DNA of 42,378 nt, taken from Nitrospira sp. (lineage in GTDB: Bacteria; Nitrospirota; Thermodesulfovibrionia; Thermodesulfovibrionales; SM23-35). This document shows positions 11,603 through 29,956 of the stretch, piece after piece (positions within the stretch are counted from its first letter, which is position 1; every line of letters starts with the position of its first letter). Both the position numbers and the translations under genes were made by a program. The stretch is taken from the NCBI GenBank assembly GCA_016873615.1, contig VGWX01000011.1:1-42378 (forward strand), in the 5' to 3' direction. The notes under the pieces are model-generated. The model was not told the origin of the DNA. It searched no databases and saw nothing but the letters and a program-made list of their open reading frames with translations.

Positions 11603-12529
11603 CTATATGCCTAAATTCTTTATCAGTTTTCTGACAGATTCACAGGATTTTTTGAACTGTGACTTTTCTTCCTTTGTCAATTTGATCTCAACAATCCTCT
11701 CAACCCCTTCTTTGCCGAGTATGACCGGCGCGCCAACATAAATATCTTTCACTCCATATTCTCCGTTAAGAAAGGCTGTACAGGGCAGCATCCGTTTTTC
11801 ATCAAGCAGGATGGACTTTATCATCTGAAAAGTGGAAGCTGCGGGTGCATAATAAGCGCTTCCAACTTTCAGCAGGGCAACGATTTCTGCTCCGCCGTTC
11901 CTTGTCCTTTCTATCAATGACGCAATTTTCTTTTTCGGCAGGAGTTCTGTTAATGGTATGCCTTTCACTGTTGTAAACCTTGGCAATGGCACCATATCAT
12001 CACCATGTCCGCCAAGTACAAGCGCCTCTATATCCTCGGGTGATACATTAAGTTCCCATGAAAGAAATGCCGCTAATCTTGAAGCATCAAGGATTCCGCC
12101 CATTCCCATAACGCGCTTGGAGGAGAATTCAGTGGTTTTCCATGCGAGCTGTGCCATAACATCCATAGGGTTGGTAACAACGATGATGACAGAATATGGT
12201 GAAAACTGTGCAATCTCAGTACTGACACCCCTGACAATGTTTGCATTCGCATGAAGGAGGTCACTCCTTGACATCCCGGGTTTTCTTGCGAGACCCGCGG
12301 TGATTACAATAATATCAGAACCTGCCGTATCCTCATACCTGTTCGTCCCTTTCATGGCAGATGAGGAATTCCAGAGCGGGCATGCTTCCGCCATATCCAG
12401 AGCCTTGCCCTGCGGCATTCCTTCAACTACATCAAAGAGGACAACATCAGCAAGCCCTGACTGCACAACAAGCTGTGCAGTTGTAGCGCCGACATTTCCA
12501 GCTCCTATTATCGACACTTTCTTTTTCAT
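11603..12529 (-). CDS. mdh: Malate dehydrogenase (LDH-like type)
   Basis: The best start is ATG 12529, which begins [20 protein letters not shown] with the Rossmann NAD loop; the upstream in-frame extension to 12601 runs through a hairpin and is rejected. Malate-specific substrate residues are present: ARKPGMSR (Arg82 and Arg88, residues 81-88), Asn120 and Arg151, and the catalytic His175 in [12 protein letters not shown]. The 308-residue length is usual. The enzyme interconverts malate and oxaloacetate and supplies oxaloacetate for the citrate synthase-like gene at 16908-18143. It leads the mdh-ndk pair and is divergent from the cytochrome gene. Confidence 0.95.
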
Positions 12530-12588
12530 AGCGGATACATTATAAAGAATAGAGATAAAGAATGGCAACGAGAGACAAAAAATAAAAT

Positions 12589-12640
12589 AATTATAAACCA
12601 TTTACTGCCATTATATTATGGCAGCAAATGGTTTATAATT
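12589..12640. promoter_or_regulatory. 23-base near-perfect inverted repeat in the mdh/cytochrome divergent region
   Basis: The arms at 12589-12611 and 12618-12640 pair over 23 bases with a single mismatch around a 6-base AT loop (core CTGCCAT-tatatt-ATGGCAG). It lies 60 bases upstream of mdh, between divergent genes, so it does not end either transcript. It could be an operator, a protective mRNA 5' hairpin or a small foldback insertion. The remaining 200 bases before the cytochrome gene hold only weak small frames. Confidence 0.55.
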
Positions 12641-12700
12641 GTATTTATATAAAAAAGCGGAGGAACAGAAACAACACCCTCATAGTGAAAACCCGGCAAG

Positions 12701-12820: not shown

Positions 12821-12844
12821 AAAATACAATTAAAAGGAGGCCTT

Positions 12845-14125
12845 ATGAAAAAAACAATCAGTTTTGTGTCATTTTCTTTTCTTTTCTTATGCCTGGTATT
12901 TCTGGTTGCATCATCAGCAGATGCAGACCCCTGCATCAACTGTCATCGGGGCGTCACTCCGGGACTGGTGAAAGACTGGGAAGCGAGCAAACACAGCAAG
13001 ATAGAGATAACATGTTCAACATGCCATGGGGATAAACACACAGGGCCCGGCAATGTAAAACTTGCTCAACTTCCTGATGAAAAACTTTGCGCTCAGTGTC
13101 ATAAAAAACAGTTTGATGAGTTCGCAAAAGGAAAACACAATTTTGGCTGGACTTCAATGAATGCTTTGCCCATCACCCATGTGGAACCCGATGAGCTTAT
13201 GGAAGGCGGTAAAGGTTGCGGCGGGTGTCACAATATGGGGATCAAGACCGACAGCCAGAAAAAGGAACTGTCAGAAAAAGGATACAGGTATCAGAATAAT
13301 TCCTGTGATGAGTGTCATACCAGACACAGTTTTTCGAAAAAGGAGGCTTTAGATCCAAAGGCATGCCGGCAGTGCCATATGGGGTATGATCATCCCCAGT
13401 GGGAGATGTGGGAAAGCTCCAAACACGGAACACGCTGGTTTGTCAAAAACTCCGGCAAGTTGCCTGAAAATGCCCAGGCTCCGTCATGCCAGGACTGCCA
13501 TCTCCCGGAAGGCACCCATGAAAACCGCACTGCATGGGGATTTCTTGGAGTAAGACTGCCATTGCCTGAAGATCCTCAATGGAAGGCTGACAGAATCACT
13601 ATTTTAAAAGCGCTTGGGGTGTTCAATCCTGAGACCGGCGAGCCAACTGCACGGCTTGATGCTGTAAAGGCAGTGGATATGGTAAGGCTTACCGAAGAGG
13701 CCTGGAAGACTGAACGCGACAAAATGTTAAAGAGGTGCAGTAATTGTCATTCTGGTCAATATGCACGTCAGCAGCTTGAAATGGGTGATTCCATAATGCA
13801 GAAAGCAGATCGTCTCCTTGCTGAGGCTATACAGATTGTTGCAGACCTGTATAAAGACGGCATTATCAAAAAGCCTGCCAATTACTCCTTTGCATATCCA
13901 GACTTTTTGTACTTTATGCAAACAGGCGGAGGTGACACGAATAAGTTGTCATACATAGACCAGGCGCTTTTTCAGATGTACATGAAACACCGTATGAGAA
14001 CATACCAGGCCTTCTTCCACATGAACCCTGATTATGCCTACTGGTATGGCTGGGCAATGATGGTAAAAGACCTCGGTAATATTAAGGAACTTGCTCAAAC
14101 TATGAGGGCAACACATCATAAGTAG
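12845..14125 (+). CDS. Octaheme c-type cytochrome of the hydroxylamine oxidoreductase (HAO) family
   Basis: The protein has a signal peptide (residues 1-28) and eight CxxCH haem-binding motifs at residues 30, 57, 82, 125, 154, 174, 215 and 298. The spacing (seven clustered, the eighth after a long gap) and the segment SCDECHTRHSFS are characteristic of octaheme HAO-like proteins, and the C-terminal half is the helical region that completes the fold. Family members either oxidise hydroxylamine or hydrazine, or reduce nitrite or hydroxylamine to ammonium. Direction depends on a tyrosine cross-link to the catalytic haem, which I cannot place confidently; the NPDYAYWYGW segment (residues 394-403) has tyrosines in the right general area. 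It should act in the periplasm. GGAGG precedes the ATG by a good distance. No membrane quinol-oxidising partner is encoded beside it. Confidence 0.88.
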   Translation: MKKTISFVSFSFLFLCLVFLVASSADADPCINCHRGVTPGLVKDWEASKHSKIEITCSTCHGDKHTGPGNVKLAQLPDEKLCAQCHKKQFDEFAKGKHNFGWTSMNALPITHVEPDELMEGGKGCGGCHNMGIKTDSQKKELSEKGYRYQNNSCDECHTRHSFSKKEALDPKACRQCHMGYDHPQWEMWESSKHGTRWFVKNSGKLPENAQAPSCQDCHLPEGTHENRTAWGFLGVRLPLPEDPQWKADRITILKALGVFNPETGEPTARLDAVKAVDMVRLTEEAWKTERDKMLKRCSNCHSGQYARQQLEMGDSIMQKADRLLAEAIQIVADLYKDGIIKKPANYSFAYPDFLYFMQTGGGDTNKLSYIDQALFQMYMKHRMRTYQAFFHMNPDYAYWYGWAMMVKDLGNIKELAQTMRATHHK

Positions 14126-14282: not shown

Positions 14283-15578
14283 TTATTCTTTGACTTCTTC
14301 AGGAAGCTTTTCGAGTTTTATTTTTGAGATCCTCTGGCCAACCATCTCCGATACCGTTATTTTCCTGGACTCAATCTCAATAACATCGCCTACCTTGGGG
14401 ATTTTCTGAAGAGCAGTGAGTAAGAAACCGCTCAGTGTCTCATATTCTGTAGATTCCGGTAGTTCTATTTTATAATCCTCTTTCAGATCCCGTATACTGA
14501 TTGACGCATCAACAAGATATACCCCCTCGCTAAGCTGTATAACAGGGCTTTCGGTATCATATTCATCCCTTATTTCTCCAACAATCTCTTCGAGGAGATC
14601 TTCCATTGTCACCAGCCCTGAAACGCCGCCATATTCGTCTATGACCAAAGCCATATGCACCCTTTTCCTCTGCATCTCCTTCAGAAGATTGCTGATATTC
14701 ATCATCTCTGGGATGAAATAGGGCGGTTTAATGAGTTTTCTGATATCGACCGCGCCTTTTCCGAGCGCGTTCAGAAAATCCTTTACATAGAGAATCCCCC
14801 TTATGTCATTAAGGTCCTTGCCGATAACCGGGTAACGTGAGAACTGCTCTTCGCTGATTACGGTTTTTATATCCTCAACCGGCATGTTAAGGCCGATGGT
14901 GACCATCTGTGTAGACGGCATCATGACCTCTTTCACAGACATATCAGTGAATTCAAAAACACTGTGAATGAGCGCCTGCTCTGCCGGTTCAAAAACTCCC
15001 TGCTCGCCGCCTTCCCTGATGAGCATCTTCACTTCCTCTTCGGTGATTGCCCTGCCTGCATGGGTCTTTTTCCCAAAAGGCTTCAGCAGAAAATTCGTGC
15101 TGGATGTGAGGATTTTGACAAAGACGAAGGCGAGCTTTGAGAAAACATCAACGATTTTTGCTGTCTTCAAACCGGTGCGTTCGGGATTTGTCAGTGCGAT
15201 GGATTTTGGAATCAGCTCACCGAAGATAAGGAGAAAATATGTAATGACTACAGTTACGATTCCTATTGAGATGGCTTCTGCCGAAGCAGCGACAAGCTTC
15301 ACGGGAATCTCCTGGATAGCCGGCTTAATGATTTTTACTGCTGCTGCACCTCCGATTGCTGCTGCAAAAACCCCTGCGAATGTAATGCCTATCTGAATCG
15401 TTGCGAGAAACCTGTCCGGCTCTTCTTTGAATTTTTTGAGGATAAGGGCGTTCTTGTTTCCTTCTTCGATCAGTTGTCGTATCCTGATCCTCCGTGTTGC
15501 AACGACTGATATTTCAGCAGCGGCAAAAAAGCCGTTGATGATGATAAAAATGACGATGAGAAGGATATCAGGCCACAT
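14283..15578 (-). CDS. CNNM/CorC-HlyC-type membrane protein with CBS pair (putative divalent cation transporter)
   Basis: Order of domains over 431 residues: an N-terminal DUF21/CNNM membrane domain with four helices (about 1-150, including INGFFAAAEISVVATRRIRIRQL), a CBS pair (about 205-330, MSVKEVMMPSTQMVTI and YGGVSGLVTMEDLLEEIVGEI) and a C-terminal CorC_HlyC domain (about 345-425, ESTEYETLSGFLLTALQKIPKVGDVIE). Proteins of this family are implicated in magnesium or cobalt export and were once called hemolysin-like. The protein sits in the inner membrane with nucleotide-sensing CBS domains in the cytoplasm. It is a single gene, convergent with the cytochrome gene. Confidence 0.92.
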   Translation of the reverse strand: MWPDILLIVIFIIINGFFAAAEISVVATRRIRIRQLIEEGNKNALILKKFKEEPDRFLATIQIGITFAGVFAAAIGGAAAVKIIKPAIQEIPVKLVAASAEAISIGIVTVVITYFLLIFGELIPKSIALTNPERTGLKTAKIVDVFSKLAFVFVKILTSSTNFLLKPFGKKTHAGRAITEEEVKMLIREGGEQGVFEPAEQALIHSVFEFTDMSVKEVMMPSTQMVTIGLNMPVEDIKTVISEEQFSRYPVIGKDLNDIRGILYVKDFLNALGKGAVDIRKLIKPPYFIPEMMNISNLLKEMQRKRVHMALVIDEYGGVSGLVTMEDLLEEIVGEIRDEYDTESPVIQLSEGVYLVDASISIRDLKEDYKIELPESTEYETLSGFLLTALQKIPKVGDVIEIESRKITVSEMVGQRISKIKLEKLPEEVKE

Positions 15579-25046: not shown

Positions 25047-25370
25047 ATGATAAGTAAAAAACCTATAAATGAAGCAACGAAACGATTGGTGGAAAAATTT
25101 CATCCCGAGCGCATTATCCTTTTTGGGTCACAGGCCAGAGGAACTGCTGATAAGCGGAGCGATATAGATCTTCTTGTCATATATCCTTCAAAGAAAAACC
25201 GTATGAAGTTGATGGTTGAAATGAATAGGTCTCTGAAAGGGATAAATTATGCTTTTGACATTGTGATTTTGAGCCCTCGTGAATATGAAATAGATAGCCA
25301 AATACCCGGCACATTAGCGAGGTATGTTTCCCAAGATGGAAAAATAATCTATGAAGCTGCGAAAAAGTGA
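25047..25370 (+). CDS. MntA-like minimal nucleotidyltransferase antitoxin
   Basis: The 107-residue product has the minimal nucleotidyltransferase motif GS-x10-D-x-D (GSQARGTADKRSDID, residues 27-41) with a further acidic strand (AFDIVIL). In HEPN/MNT modules the MNT protein neutralises the HEPN toxin, in the best-studied case by adding AMP groups to it. The stop overlaps the next gene by 20 bases. It is the first gene of the accessory island that follows the copper cluster, whose codon use and AT content look slightly different from the housekeeping genes on either side. Confidence 0.8.
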   Translation: MISKKPINEATKRLVEKFHPERIILFGSQARGTADKRSDIDLLVIYPSKKNRMKLMVEMNRSLKGINYAFDIVILSPREYEIDSQIPGTLARYVSQDGKIIYEAAKK

Positions 25371-25788
25371 TATTACAAAGAAAGTAAGGGAATGGTTAAC
25401 ATACGCTGAGGAGGATCTGCGCATTGCTCGTCATGCCCTTACTCTTTCCAGCAGTGTGCCATATAGGCTTATTGCCTTTCACGCTCAGCAATGTGCGGAA
25501 AAATATCTTAAGTCATATCTTGCATACCATTCCATTGATTTTCCTTATACCCATGATATAAGCAAGTTATTAAAGTGGTGCGAGGAAAAAGCTGATTGGA
25601 CAGATAAGATAAGGCAGGCAGAAGAGCTTACTCCCTTTGCGGTTACAGCTCGATATCCAGGGATTTGGAAATCAGTGACAAAGCGGCAAGCATTGAGGGC
25701 TGTAAAAATTGCCAGTCAGACGCGGAACGTTATAAGGCGTGCACTGATCAAAGAAGGATTAAAGATCAAAAATGAAGACAGTAAATGA
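25351..25788 (+). CDS. HEPN-domain RNase toxin, partner of the MNT gene
   Basis: The 145-residue all-helical protein shows the HEPN pattern WLTYAEEDLRIARHAL, then RLIAFHAQQCAEKYLKSYL, giving an R-x4-H motif (Arg39, His44), the RNase active-site signature of HEPN toxins. The residue after His is Ala-Gln rather than x-Tyr, so it lacks the tyrosine that is modified in the RX4HXY HepT subtype. A TARYPG segment near residue 110 is usual for this HEPN subfamily. The start overlaps the MNT gene by 20 bases, so the pair is translationally coupled. Toxicity is inferred from family. Confidence 0.75.
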   Translation: MKLRKSDITKKVREWLTYAEEDLRIARHALTLSSSVPYRLIAFHAQQCAEKYLKSYLAYHSIDFPYTHDISKLLKWCEEKADWTDKIRQAEELTPFAVTARYPGIWKSVTKRQALRAVKIASQTRNVIRRALIKEGLKIKNEDSK

Positions 25789-26156: not shown

Positions 26157-29100
26157 ATGTTGAAAAAGTATCTTCAGAAGATTGCCGATACAAGCAAGCA
26201 TGGAGATGCACGAGAAGAAAGCTATTATCCAGTCTTAAAATCTCTTCTCGATGAGTATTGTATTGCAATCAACAAGAAAAATATTCACATCACACCTCAA
26301 CCTAAAAAGACAGAGGCAGGAAACCCCGATTTCAGAGTATGGGATGGAAAACAGCATATCACAGGATACATAGAGGCAAAAGACCCTACTGTTGAGAACC
26401 TTGATAAGATAGAGGAAACAGAACAATTAAAGAGATACCTGCATACTTTCCCGAACCTGATACTTACCAATTTTCTTGAGTTCAGGCTTTACCGTAATGG
26501 TGTATTGATTGACAAAGCGCTTATCGGCAGACCCTTTTGGATAAGCAAGGTAAAGACCACCCCACCTGTAGAAAAAGAGTCAGAACTGCTACAGATATTC
26601 GAAAAATTCTTTTCCTTTTCCATTCCGAAAGTCTACGATGCAAAGAATCTTGCAATAGAGCTTGCTAAACGGACACGGTTTTTGAAAGATGAGGTTATAG
26701 CACAGGAGTTAAGGGAAGAAGAAAAGACGGGCAAGGGATTTATCGGGGGATTCTATAAGGCTTTCAAGGATTACCTCATCAGCAGTCTTACAGAGGATGA
26801 ATTTGCAGACCTGTATGCACAGACAATCACCTACGGACTTTTTGCAGCCCGTACACGTTCCGAGAACGGCTTTAACAGAAAACTTGCCTATTACAATATC
26901 CCTGAGACCATAGGAATATTGAGAGATGTTTTTCAGTTTATTTCATTAGGTTCATTACCTCAACCTATGGAGTGGATTATTGATGACATTTCGGAAATCC
27001 TATCCGTTGCCGACATCAATAAAATACTGCATCAATATTTCCATGAAGGGAAAGGCAAAGACCCTGTAGTGCATTTTTATGAAACATTTCTTTCCGAGTA
27101 TGACCCCCATACAAGAGCGATGAGGGGAGTATATTACACCCCTGAACCTGTAGTGTCCTATATAGTTCGTTCATTGCATGGCATCCTGAAAGAGCAATTT
27201 AAAAGACCCGATGGATTAGCAAGCAACACTGTTACTGTTTTAGACCCTGCAGCAGGAACGCTGACTTTTTTAGCTGAGTCTGCAAAATTAGCTGTTGATG
27301 AGTTTGTATCAAAATACGGAGAGGGAGGCAAGGAGAATTTCATCAAAGAGCATATCCTGAAGAACTTCTATGCTTTTGAATTAATGATGGCGCCCTATGC
27401 AATAGGTCACTTAAAGATGTCTTTCCTGCTTGAGGAATTAGGATACAGGTTGCAGAAGGATGACAGGGTAAAGCTGTATCTTACCAATACCCTTGAGATG
27501 GAAGAACTTGCACAGACCGAATTACCAGGAATGGTTTCCCTGTCAGAAGAATCACACCTTGCAGGAATAGTAAAAAAAGAACAGCCGATTTTAGTGATAT
27601 TAGGCAACCCTCCGTATTCAGTAAGTTCCGTCAATAAATCCGACTTCATAGAACAGGAGATGGAACTATATAAAGAGGATGTACGAAAAGAAAGAAACAT
27701 ACAGCCCCTTTCAGATGATTATATAAAGTTCATCCGGTTTGCACATTGGAAGATAGACCGTGACGGCAAAGGGATAATCGGGATGATTACAAATAACTCC
27801 TATCTGTCGGGATTAATACACAGGGGGATGAGAAAAAGATTGCTTGACAGTTTCGATGAAATTTATATCTTAAACCTTCACGGTAACAGCCGTATCGGTG
27901 AAAAGTGTGCTGATGGAAGCAAGGATGAAAATGTTTTTGACATTCAGCAGGGTGTATCTATTGTCTTATTCATCAAAAAGGAGCAGAAGGGGAAAGCTTG
28001 TAAAGTCTTTTATCAGGACGTCTACGGATTAAGAGAAAATAAATATGACCTTTTAAGTAAATCCGATTTCCATACAACAGAATGGAAACAATTAAACCCT
28101 GTAGAACCTTATTATTTCTTTATTGTGAAAGATTTTTCATTACAGCCAAAATACGATAAGTTTGTATCTATTACTGACATATTCGATAAATGTTCATTTG
28201 GTATCACAACTGCACGAGACCATTTTGTTATAGGCTTTAACGAACAAGAAATTAAGCAGAGATTACGGACATTCACAAGTGACTTGCCTGATGATTTGGT
28301 TGCCCAGTCTTTGGATTTGAACGATACAGGCGAATGGAATATAAAGATCGCAAGAGAAGCGGTTAGGAAAATTGATTGGGAAAAATCTATAAAGCCGTAT
28401 TCATATCGTCCGTTTGATGACCGAAAAATAGCTTATTTGCCAAATCTTATTGAGAGAGACAGACTTGAAATAATGCAACATATTTTAGAGAAAGATAACC
28501 TTGTCTTATCCTTGACAAGAAGACTGAGAGATCCCCTCTGGCAACATGTTCTTGTCTCACAGTTCATCACAGATAAAACAATTCTTTCATCAAGGGATAA
28601 CTGTTATTGTTTCCCGCTCTATCTCTATCAAACAACTGAAAAGAGCAGAAAAAAATCATTTAAAAATATCATGATGCTTTTTGAGCCTGAGGCAGATTAT
28701 TTTGTTAGGAAACCTAATTTCACCCTTACATTTACTGATTTTATATCAAAACAGTTCAGGAAATCTCCAAATCCTGAAGAAATCTTCTATTACATTTATG
28801 CTGTCCTTTATTCCGAGACATACAGAACAAAATATGCAGAGTTCCTGAAGATAGACTTTCCGAGAGTGCCGTTTACAAAGGACTATAAGCTGTTTAAGAA
28901 AATGTCCGAATACGGTAATATGCTTGCTGATTTGCACTTACTGAAATCCTCTGAACTTGATTCACCGATTGCACGGTTTCAGGAAACAGGTGATAACCGG
29001 GTAAGAAAGTTGCGATATGAATTATCCGAAAAATCTCCCCTTTCCCCTCTTTGCCAAAGAGGGGAAAAAACTCTAACCCCCACTTTAGTAAAGGGGGGTG

Positions 29101-29345
29101 AGGGGGGATTTGGTCTTCTTTACATCAATAAAGACCAATATTTTGAAGGCATATCAGAGGAAGTATGGAACTATCAAATCGGTGGGTATCAGGTCTGTGA
29201 TAAATGGCTGAAGGATAGGAAAGAAAGGGTACTATCCCTTGATGAGATACAAACCTATTGCAGAATAGTAACGGCGATTCAAAAGACGATTAGCATACAG
29301 GAGGGGATCGACAAAATTTATGATGCGGTTGAACAATCCCTATGA
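26157..29345 (+). CDS. Single-chain restriction-modification enzyme (type IIG / type ISP-like)
   Basis: The 1062-residue protein has an N-terminal PD-(D/E)XK-type nuclease (about 45-80: NPDFRVWDGKQHITGYIEAKD, with Asp58 and Glu73-x-Lys75). A helical linker (about 150-300) follows, then an N6-adenine methyltransferase domain (motif I DPAAGTLTF near 363, motif IV NPPY near 484-487, then SYLSG and later motifs). The C-terminal region (about 600-950) should be the target recognition domain (YSYRPFDDRKIAYLP segment). Such enzymes cut and methylate with one polypeptide. Residues 959-985 are encoded by an interspersed repeat (29031-29111) inside a non-conserved loop; the frame stays open, so the enzyme may still work. 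ATG 26157 has a GGGGAG about 13 bases before it. No helicase subunit is adjacent. Confidence 0.85.
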   Translation: MLKKYLQKIADTSKHGDAREESYYPVLKSLLDEYCIAINKKNIHITPQPKKTEAGNPDFRVWDGKQHITGYIEAKDPTVENLDKIEETEQLKRYLHTFPNLILTNFLEFRLYRNGVLIDKALIGRPFWISKVKTTPPVEKESELLQIFEKFFSFSIPKVYDAKNLAIELAKRTRFLKDEVIAQELREEEKTGKGFIGGFYKAFKDYLISSLTEDEFADLYAQTITYGLFAARTRSENGFNRKLAYYNIPETIGILRDVFQFISLGSLPQPMEWIIDDISEILSVADINKILHQYFHEGKGKDPVVHFYETFLSEYDPHTRAMRGVYYTPEPVVSYIVRSLHGILKEQFKRPDGLASNTVTVLDPAAGTLTFLAESAKLAVDEFVSKYGEGGKENFIKEHILKNFYAFELMMAPYAIGHLKMSFLLEELGYRLQKDDRVKLYLTNTLEMEELAQTELPGMVSLSEESHLAGIVKKEQPILVILGNPPYSVSSVNKSDFIEQEMELYKEDVRKERNIQPLSDDYIKFIRFAHWKIDRDGKGIIGMITNNSYLSGLIHRGMRKRLLDSFDEIYILNLHGNSRIGEKCADGSKDENVFDIQQGVSIVLFIKKEQKGKACKVFYQDVYGLRENKYDLLSKSDFHTTEWKQLNPVEPYYFFIVKDFSLQPKYDKFVSITDIFDKCSFGITTARDHFVIGFNEQEIKQRLRTFTSDLPDDLVAQSLDLNDTGEWNIKIAREAVRKIDWEKSIKPYSYRPFDDRKIAYLPNLIERDRLEIMQHILEKDNLVLSLTRRLRDPLWQHVLVSQFITDKTILSSRDNCYCFPLYLYQTTEKSRKKSFKNIMMLFEPEADYFVRKPNFTLTFTDFISKQFRKSPNPEEIFYYIYAVLYSETYRTKYAEFLKIDFPRVPFTKDYKLFKKMSEYGNMLADLHLLKSSELDSPIARFQETGDNRVRKLRYELSEKSPLSPLCQRGEKTLTPTLVKGGEGGFGLLYINKDQYFEGISEEVWNYQIGGYQVCDKWLKDRKERVLSLDEIQTYCRIVTAIQKTISIQEGIDKIYDAVEQSL
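29031..29111. repeat. 81-bp interspersed repeat lodged in frame inside the restriction-modification gene
   Basis: The unit runs from aaatctcccctttcccctc to gaggggggattt and is composed of two hairpins (CCCCTCTTT-GCC-AAAGAGGGG and CCCCCACTTTAGTAAAGGGGGG). Its 81 bases equal 27 codons and it reads through as KSPLSPLCQRGEKTLTPTLV plus KGGEGGF, adding a Pro/Gly-rich loop. It is a close relative of the intergenic unit at 15640-15715, in the opposite role of coding DNA. Confidence 0.85.
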
Positions 29346-29380
29346 GGGCGAATGATTGAGGTTGGGAGAGGAGTGTGTCG

Positions 29381-29956
29381 ATGAAAGTTCATCATCTCAT
29401 AGTCATCGCAGGCCCTAACGGCGCAGGGAAATCAACAACTGCTCCTTCTCTTTTAAAGGGGACGCTTGAGGTGACTGAGTTTGTTAATGCGGACTTAATC
29501 GCTCAAGGATTGTCCGGCTTCCAGCCGGAAGGCGCGGCATTTCATGCCGGGCGTGTAATGCTTGAGCGGATACATTATCTGGCCAAAAAACGGGTTGATT
29601 TTGCCTTTGAAACGACCCTGTCCAGCAAAACGTTTGCCTCATGGATTACCGACTTGCGCAAAACGGGCTATAACTTTCATCTGGTCTTCCTCTGGCTGCC
29701 AAATGATGATTTTGCTGTCGCGCGGGTAGCAGAGAGAGTTCGCATGGGCGGGCATAATGTTCCTGAAGAAACTATACGGAGGAGGTATTATTCAGGATTA
29801 CGGAACTTTTTTCGTCTTTATCAGGAATTAACAGATAAATGGCGTTTCTATAATAATGCTGATCCTTCCGGTCCACGCCTGATTGCATCAGGTAGCGGAA
29901 AAAACTGCGATAAAGTACATGATATTGCAATATGGAATCGTATTGTGAGAAAATGA
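29381..29956 (+). CDS. Zeta-toxin-like P-loop kinase
   Basis: I chose ATG 29381, seven bases after GAGAGGAG, over the GTG two codons earlier. The 191-residue protein has a Walker A motif GPNGAGKST (residues 11-19), then FVNADLIAQGL (the zeta-type Asp) and FAFETTLSS (Glu-Thr-Thr-Leu), and RRYYSGLRNF, together diagnostic of the zeta/COG4185 kinases. Zeta toxins phosphorylate UDP-N-acetylglucosamine to block cell wall synthesis; the substrate of this short branch is unproven. It is followed four bases later by a 59-codon gene, an expected antitoxin, in the reverse of the usual epsilon-zeta order. Confidence 0.82.
   Translation: MKVHHLIVIAGPNGAGKSTTAPSLLKGTLEVTEFVNADLIAQGLSGFQPEGAAFHAGRVMLERIHYLAKKRVDFAFETTLSSKTFASWITDLRKTGYNFHLVFLWLPNDDFAVARVAERVRMGGHNVPEETIRRRYYSGLRNFFRLYQELTDKWRFYNNADPSGPRLIASGSGKNCDKVHDIAIWNRIVRK

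Follow-up and report, generated by a model that had tools for sequence, protein, structure and literature searches.

An octahaem cytochrome of the HAO family with a conserved tyrosine aligned with the P460 site, and its possible role in nitrogen-oxide handling in a relative of sulfur-metabolising anaerobes

What does an HAO-family octahaem cytochrome do in a bacterium related to sulfur-metabolising anaerobes, and in which direction would it run, when a tyrosine sits where nitrifiers and anammox bacteria fasten their catalytic haem? Proteins of the HAO family are widespread among anaerobes without a known part in nitrogen cycling, and what they do there is acknowledged as open in the available text of PMC9213671. 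The window, by which we mean the whole stretch of 42,378 bases that was analysed, is contig C11 of a host genome of 2.9 Mb in 216 contigs, reported as 99.98% complete and 3.32% contaminated. Judged by their titles, the nearest relatives by the octahaem gene are Nitrospirota/Thermodesulfovibrionales MAGs.

The gene lies on the forward strand at 12845-14125, preceded on the same strand by a ribosome-binding-like AGGAGG (12835-12840), and encodes 426 residues from an ATG start. Inspection of the translation by eye finds a single hydrophobic stretch, at the N-terminus, predicted to be a Sec-type signal peptide of about residues 1-27 (12845-12925), and the protein is presumably exported to the periplasm. 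On either side the opposite strand carries a gene, for a malate/lactate dehydrogenase (11603-12601) before it and for a CNNM/CorC protein (14283-15578) after it, so the octahaem gene looks like a single-gene unit. An inverted repeat with two 31-nt arms, 87% complementary, is found at the divergent spacer between the dehydrogenase and octahaem genes (12584-12645). Among the window's non-overlapping ORFs of at least 100 aa, the octahaem frame alone has more than one CXXC[HK] motif. With these flanks and no other multihaem ORF in the window, the original prediction was right that no NapC/NrfH-like or cytochrome c554 gene adjoins the cytochrome. Further along the window, 25047-25788 and 26157-29956 hold a nucleotidyltransferase/HEPN-like pair (by eye), followed by a restriction-modification protein of type ISP and, again judged by eye, a zeta-toxin-like ATPase.

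Sequence and predicted fold concur on the family, and membership of the HAO family is therefore secure. Using phmmer against solved structures we obtained HAO, HOX, Kustc0458 and hydrazine dehydrogenase (HDH) entries at E 1e-24 to 6e-20, covering Brocadia and Kuenenia HAO/HOX and Nitrosomonas HAO, with 4qo5 at 6e-17; after these comes one other multihaem protein, 6i5b (E 2e-4). A profile of 56 orthologues gave HAO-family structures at E 1e-44 to 7e-32, 4qo5 at 6e-27, 6i5b at 8e-6 and 6lod at 5e-4, and Pfam PF13447 matches at 90.5 bits against a cut-off of 21.9. The AlphaFold2 monomer model (mean pLDDT 83.8, pTM 0.82), in which the haem-4 motif is poorly modelled with residues 127-129 below pLDDT 50, has the HAO fold. 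It aligns with nine HAO-family entries at Z 19.8-21.9 over 300-354 residues, compared with Z 9.9-10.4 for octahaem nitrite reductases (ONR) and 7.6-8.9 for NrfA entries. We rejected an ONR (TvNiR type) identity, since all eight motifs are CXXCH with no CXXCK, where ONR has one CXXCK haem, and the HAO matches are far ahead. The same two observations leave an octahaem tetrathionate reductase (OTR), the identity that the original prediction named as its possible refutation, without support; no OTR is named among the sequence and fold matches listed, and absence from the fold list does not exclude one. As a cytochrome of this family with every haem motif intact the protein is what had been claimed, and as an HAO family member it is ordinary; it represents a real and well conserved, uncharacterised enzyme type.

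Among the closest known systems, Kuenenia Kustc0458 (PDB 6h5l) is the best profile match (E 1.2e-44) and the top structural match (Z 21.9, tied with others within 1 Z) and has the same C-terminal motif spacing. It differs in carrying Trp where the window protein has Tyr399 and in being complexed with Kustc0457, no such partner being seen here. Nitrosomonas europaea HAO (NeHAO; 1fgj, 4fas) shares the fold, the eight haems, the Asp267-His268 pair and a tyrosine at the Tyr467 site. However, identity is 27% over the aligned part with a one-residue gap just before the Tyr motif, NeHAO is 120 residues longer even with the window protein's signal peptide counted, and the hosts of window-type proteins are anaerobic.

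Conservation was followed in two samples. The first comprises the best 80 of 445 relatives plus relatives from the host's order and is for that reason biased to close homologues. The second, drawn from 247 genomes of the phylum to which Desulfoprunum belongs (156 of them with any match), comprises 53 new loci; it took 28 of the 32 listed matches of at least 64% identity, the other four being already in the first sample, and 32 of the 47 full-length listed matches at 43-56%. The cultured Desulfoprunum benzoelyticum DSM 28570 carries the gene in duplicate, as the nearly identical L138 and L140. Left out were L075, L106 and L132 (fewer than eight motifs), the paralogue L076, seven same-genome duplicates in the first sample, seven duplicates in the second, and L145, which is truncated before the Tyr site; a NIR_SIR-type gene adjoins L145. 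In the 110 non-redundant orthologues of the first sample the histidines of the eight CXXCH motifs (residues 30-34, 57-61, 82-86, 125-129, 154-158, 174-178, 215-219 and 298-302; 12932-13750, forward strand) are invariant. Beyond these motifs, H65, H98, H161, H194 and H225 are His in 110/110 and H392 in 109/110, the remaining row being truncated. H50 is His in 90/110: no Tyr-type row (n=80) departs from it, nor do the Leu, Phe or truncated ones, whereas of the 21 His-type rows one has His and the other 20 have Met. Together with H50 these residues would fit the distal ligands of seven haems and leave haem 4 open, an assignment made by alignment and from the ligand scheme of HAO. By motif order haem 4 corresponds to CGGCH (13217-13231, forward strand); in HAO this is the catalytic P460 haem, and here it is presumably the open catalytic haem. 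By phmmer alignment Asp182-His183 (13388-13393, forward strand) matches Asp267-His268 of NeHAO, so the catalytic pair of P460-type HAO/HDH/HOX is present, with Asp in 110/110 and His in 109/110 orthologues. The accessible part of PMC3814345 names Asp267, His268 and Tyr467 of NeHAO as functional residues.

The third of these residues bears on direction. Both the phmmer and the profile alignments pair Tyr399 (codon 14039-14041, forward strand) with NeHAO Tyr467. In the structural alignment model residue 426 pairs with residue 494 of 1fgj, and this offset of 68 again places 399 on 467, assuming that the final helix (395-424), at the start of which Tyr399 sits, is ungapped. The match may be off by one, because related proteins have Trp at the equivalent site and Met eight residues earlier according to the available portion of PMC8940962, and the invariant W400 adjoins Tyr399. 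With that possible one-residue error, the aligned Tyr399 corresponds to the tyrosine expected of oxidative P460-type HAO/HDH/HOX. Epsilonproteobacterial HaoA, another HAO-family protein, has its Trp at window position 400, but the combination of Trp with Met eight before it, as given for that group in the same source, differs from the window protein, which has His392 before W400.

In the first sample (n=110) the site holds Tyr in 80 rows, His in 21, Leu in 7 and Phe in 1, with one missing; in the second (n=53) it holds Tyr in 21, Leu in 14, Thr in 12 and Phe in 6. Every readable row of the window protein's clade has Tyr (79/79, one further row being truncated), as do 21/21 of the fresh loci that are at least 62% identical to the window protein, against 0/32 at 54% or below. 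Outside the Tyr clade Leu, Phe, Thr or His occupies the site in nearly all, and most relatives seen in the host's own order are without Tyr. Positions 181, which adjoins the catalytic Asp-His pair, 379 and 387 show a parallel split, with Tyr prevailing in Tyr399-type rows and Phe in the sister groups.

Such a pattern would fit a true oxidative P460-type hydroxylamine (or hydrazine) oxidoreductase, independently evolved in anaerobes, in which Tyr399 cross-links haem 4 of a neighbouring subunit and electrons pass to periplasmic cytochromes. Besides the alignments, the clade-wide tyrosine and the three additional Tyr positions, published work points this way. As far as their available texts go, PMC12758564 infers a separate His-to-Tyr transition in Desulfobacterota and reads Tyr at the P460 site as the mark of oxidative enzymes, and PMC11726666 finds by calculation that tyrosine favours hydroxylamine oxidation. 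A Tyr variant of this kind is therefore not new in print; the octahaem gene of the window is not discussed in the portion of PMC12758564 at hand. Against the oxidative reading, the tyrosine assignment is a matter of alignment, with W400, a candidate for the equivalent site, next to it. Moreover, we know of no obvious hydroxylamine source or high-potential acceptor in these hosts. We consider this reading somewhat unlikely. Haem 4 may be tuned by Tyr399 through a cross-link of the P460 kind, but an aligned tyrosine alone does not amount to a cross-link, and neither cross-link nor direction is proven here. The check for a P460 tyrosine that was originally proposed thus found an aligned residue from which the published rule would predict the oxidative type, while sequence leaves the direction unsettled.

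Phylogeny suggests that the Tyr-type gene did not arise in the host's lineage. We built a tree by a quick method with midpoint rooting; it carries a long-branch warning for the paralogues. Of the 80 Tyr rows, 79 fall together with the truncated one in a single clade (support 96); the remaining Tyr row, L073, sits in the Leu clade and is counted as Tyr-type throughout, as that term is defined by residue. Within the Tyr clade the window protein, eight others of its family (f1) and one MAG labelled Proteobacteria form a ten-row set (support 96), and this set nests in a 69-row group (support 97) that otherwise consists mainly of Desulfobacterota and 'Deltaproteobacteria' MAGs. The other rows of the host's order, f1 included, are 21 of His-type and nine in the Leu/Phe clade, four of the latter from f1, and in one genome (G005) a Tyr-type gene (L039) occurs together with a Leu-type one (L049). 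Because the window copy nests inside mainly Desulfobacterota sequences, lateral acquisition is probable and the simplest reading, with the quick tree and possible MAG contamination as caveats. An extended account, in which a Tyr-cross-linked P460-type HAO evolved independently in strict sulfur-cycle anaerobes, spread laterally from Desulfobacterota to Nitrospirota (G005 keeping its Leu-type copy too) and acts on NO/hydroxylamine without a dedicated partner, appears rather doubtful as a whole.

The genome was searched for a quinol-linked cytochrome, as had been recommended. Cytochrom_NNT (NapC/NrfH, PF03264) has no match in the host genome while an E. coli control matched; the absence is not absolute, as the host assembly is in 216 contigs. 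This separates the locus from the epsilonproteobacterial HaoA-HaoC system, since the window has no HaoC/NapC gene and the genome no PF03264. Across the relatives, a NapC-like gene lies within 4 kb of 4/80 Tyr-type and 0/29 other loci in the first sample and of 0/21 and 0/32 in the second, pooled 4/101 and 0/61, with many flanks cut short (full 4-kb flanks in 36/80 Tyr-type and 20/29 other loci of the first sample). In the four cases (L084, L087, L090, L098) the NapC-like gene adjoins a second, different octahaem gene, and these octahaem genes are separate paralogues with Met eight before Trp. At L104 a NapC-like gene stands beside the locus on the opposite strand, detected by profile and not by single-sequence search. 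With a NapC-like gene near so few loci, the lack of a quinol-linked partner is usual for this octahaem family, and no dedicated partner is conserved in the neighbourhoods of either sample. The description 'solitary' hence holds for the window locus, but being solitary is the norm for the family and not an unusual feature. The host has other candidates for periplasmic electron exchange. A protein of 564 aa encoded on contig C56 has 16 motifs and matches class III cytochromes, its neighbours being ferredoxin-type and membrane proteins, and C10 encodes several multihaem proteins (names by inspection).

Gene clustering likewise revealed no partner common to the loci, although defence genes recurred; examples were identified by Pfam as ODP/flavodiiron, rubrerythrin, rubredoxin, Fur, Prismane (Hcp) and NIR_SIR. 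We counted neighbours within 4 kb and derived expectations from copy numbers in 23 or 26 genomes, some of which were picked because they carry such neighbours; the counts ignore shared ancestry, and rows are not independent. At most loci the neighbours are uninformative. An Hcp-type ferredoxin is the best replicated of them, found at 15/162 loci against 0.24 expected, and all 15 also pass the stricter 1e-30 threshold used for the genome rate. It occurs in both samples (7/80 Tyr-type and 1/29 other loci in the first, 1/21 and 6/32 in the second), without being restricted to the Tyr type (Fisher p 0.58). The ferredoxin is present in 20/26 genomes, one copy each. Fourteen genomes that have it belong to both sets, and in 10 of these, compared by eye, a prismane (Hcp-family) match is no more than 4 kb away from it; in one, G129, the matches are fragments. 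Hcp itself is within 4 kb of 2/80 Tyr-type loci in the first sample (0.36 expected, P 0.05) and of 2/32 other loci in the second. At six Thr-type loci (L254, L255, L283, L284, L285, L287) the ferredoxin gene lies 0-328 bp from the octahaem gene on the same strand, and L283 and L284 have Hcp within 4 kb. That the ferredoxin accompanies 6/12 Thr-type orthologues counts against the oxidative P460 reading, since Tyr then fails to set a separate pathway apart.

For FprA the count within 4 kb is 16/162 loci (0.69 expected). Strong in the first sample (14/80 Tyr-type and 0/29 other), this link was not replicated among the Tyr-type loci of the second (0/21, with a chance of 0.018 at the first rate; 2/32 other). 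A Tyr-specific link to O2/NO defence was considered and dropped because the second sample did not repeat the pattern of the first: any of six gene types accompanied 26/80 Tyr-type against 1/29 other loci in the first and 3/21 against 9/32 in the second, with pooled Fisher p values, Tyr-type versus other, of 0.03 for FprA and 0.09 for any gene. None of the defence genes is exclusive to Tyr-type loci. Regulator sites upstream of 121 loci, duplicates included, were not consistent; FNR-like patterns occur in 5, one HcpR-like pattern in 2 and four others in none. At the orthologue L040 a rubredoxin-like frame broken by a stop codon is seen by eye immediately ahead of the octahaem gene. The window locus and its eight f1 relatives are without any counted gene in their 4-kb flanks (0/9), so the context is borrowed from more distant orthologues.

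Taken as a whole, the explanation we favour, to which we give a probability of roughly 40%, is a periplasmic NO/hydroxylamine-handling HAO-family enzyme on a low-potential cytochrome pool, running reductively. The protein, an octahaem cytochrome of a 'short' HAO branch centred on Desulfobacterota, would be exported and soluble. Its part in nitrosative-stress defence would be to deal with periplasmic NO and hydroxylamine, a step suggested with moderate weight by the ferredoxin that travels with Hcp, and it would exchange electrons with the general periplasmic multihaem pool, no dedicated NapC/NrfH or c554 being involved. In the cytoplasm, Hcp and flavodiiron FprA would act on what enters. The net direction is probably reductive, from NO or nitrite to hydroxylamine/ammonium, given that such anaerobes have low-potential cytochromes in their periplasm and that the same context surrounds the Thr-type relatives. 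Direction is the least certain part, as the published Tyr rule points the opposite way.

The hosts themselves invite another substrate. Most belong by name to sulfur-metabolising lineages, and the accessible text of PMC9213671 proposes, calling it speculative, that clade I HAO-family proteins of Desulfobacterota/Tharpellota reduce sulfur species, which would make the window protein a terminal reductase for sulfite, polysulfide or tetrathionate. Clade I (the Klotz 2008 clades, as used in that text) resembles our set in being HAO-family, mostly from Desulfobacterota and of unknown function, and the 'Candidatus Tharpella' locus L155 shares the Tyr clade with the window protein in our own tree, not the published one. 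Nevertheless, the L155 genome holds several HAO-like genes, so which of them PMC9213671 means is unsure, and the window copy differs in belonging to Nitrospirota and in the N-oxide context found here where a sulfur role is proposed there. The recurring neighbours are N-oxide/oxygen defence genes, and among the 45 commonest neighbour clusters, viewed by eye, no sulfur gene was recognised except a NIR_SIR-domain protein, whose fold serves sulfite as well as nitrite reductases. The HAO catalytic Asp-His pair is also conserved, and a sulfur reductase seems quite unlikely to us.

Improbable, in our estimate, is a multihaem protein that has no nitrogen chemistry and deals with peroxide or oxygen or does nothing but store electrons. 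FprA, rubrerythrin and desulfoferrodoxin, all acting on oxygen species, are among the neighbours, and the part of PMC7762298 available describes a large Desulfuromonas acetoxidans octahaem cytochrome without HAO or polysulfide reductase activity, although the comparison is one of size, which differs (65 kDa). The retained HAO active-site pair and apparently open haem 4 instead argue for catalysis on small N-oxides, and the ferredoxin/Hcp link is the best replicated one.

Returning to the proposed reductive handling of NO and hydroxylamine, the host's other genes bear on it in different ways. The solitary-cytochrome reading was sound in describing an octahaem HAO-family protein that is alone at its locus, but it did not have in view the likely lateral import or two further octahaem cytochromes on C34 and C9. 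The C34 protein (L171:9248-10897) is of the TvNiR-type octahaem nitrite reductases, with 508 bits to 2zo5 matched over its length and CLQCK where the 2zo5 enzyme has CLNCK, and is by sequence a candidate for nitrite ammonification. The C9 protein (L076) matches 4qo5, which we take to be the Ignicoccus octahaem cytochrome, at 453 bits. It lies in an apparent operon at C9 3672-8656, Fur - rubredoxin - FprA - rubrerythrin - octahaem - FMN reductase, in which the FMN reductase was assigned by eye. Of the 30 best loci of this protein in the order (relatives L176-L205; own copy included, 1.5-kb flanks, without a base rate), 24 have a rubrerythrin or FprA gene upstream in the same orientation, and passages of one paper on octahaem cytochromes and rubrerythrin do not describe such an operon. 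As the C9 protein is of a different HAO-superfamily branch, its defence link supports the NO/hydroxylamine reading only indirectly. Short stretches on C4, C7, C20, C30, C34, C37, C64, C132 and C137 resemble parts of residues 3-56 of the C9 frame, which are probably a dispersed repeat and not part of the C9 protein.

Against the favoured explanation stands the host's Hcp (prismane) gene on C27 (L173:4782-5523), which is incomplete in the assembly; it covers positions 1-96 and 381-513 in two adjoining frames and is either degenerate or an assembly fault. A second prismane match, on C23, was rejected as Hcp, since by inspection it sits among CO dehydrogenase/acetyl-CoA synthase-like genes. An NrfA-like gene on C35 (L170:13196-13834) matches profile positions 211-427 only and apparently is without its N-terminal half.

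The clade-wide tyrosine and the likely lateral transfer make this enzyme type moderately interesting. Its natural variants, which resemble one another apart from having Tyr, His, Leu, Phe or Thr at the key site, make it testable whether Tyr alone produces a P460 haem and sets the direction, and the recurrent Hcp-ferredoxin neighbours lead to a testable physiological hypothesis. If the Tyr-type enzymes are reductive, the rule that tyrosine means oxidative would fail for annotating hao genes.
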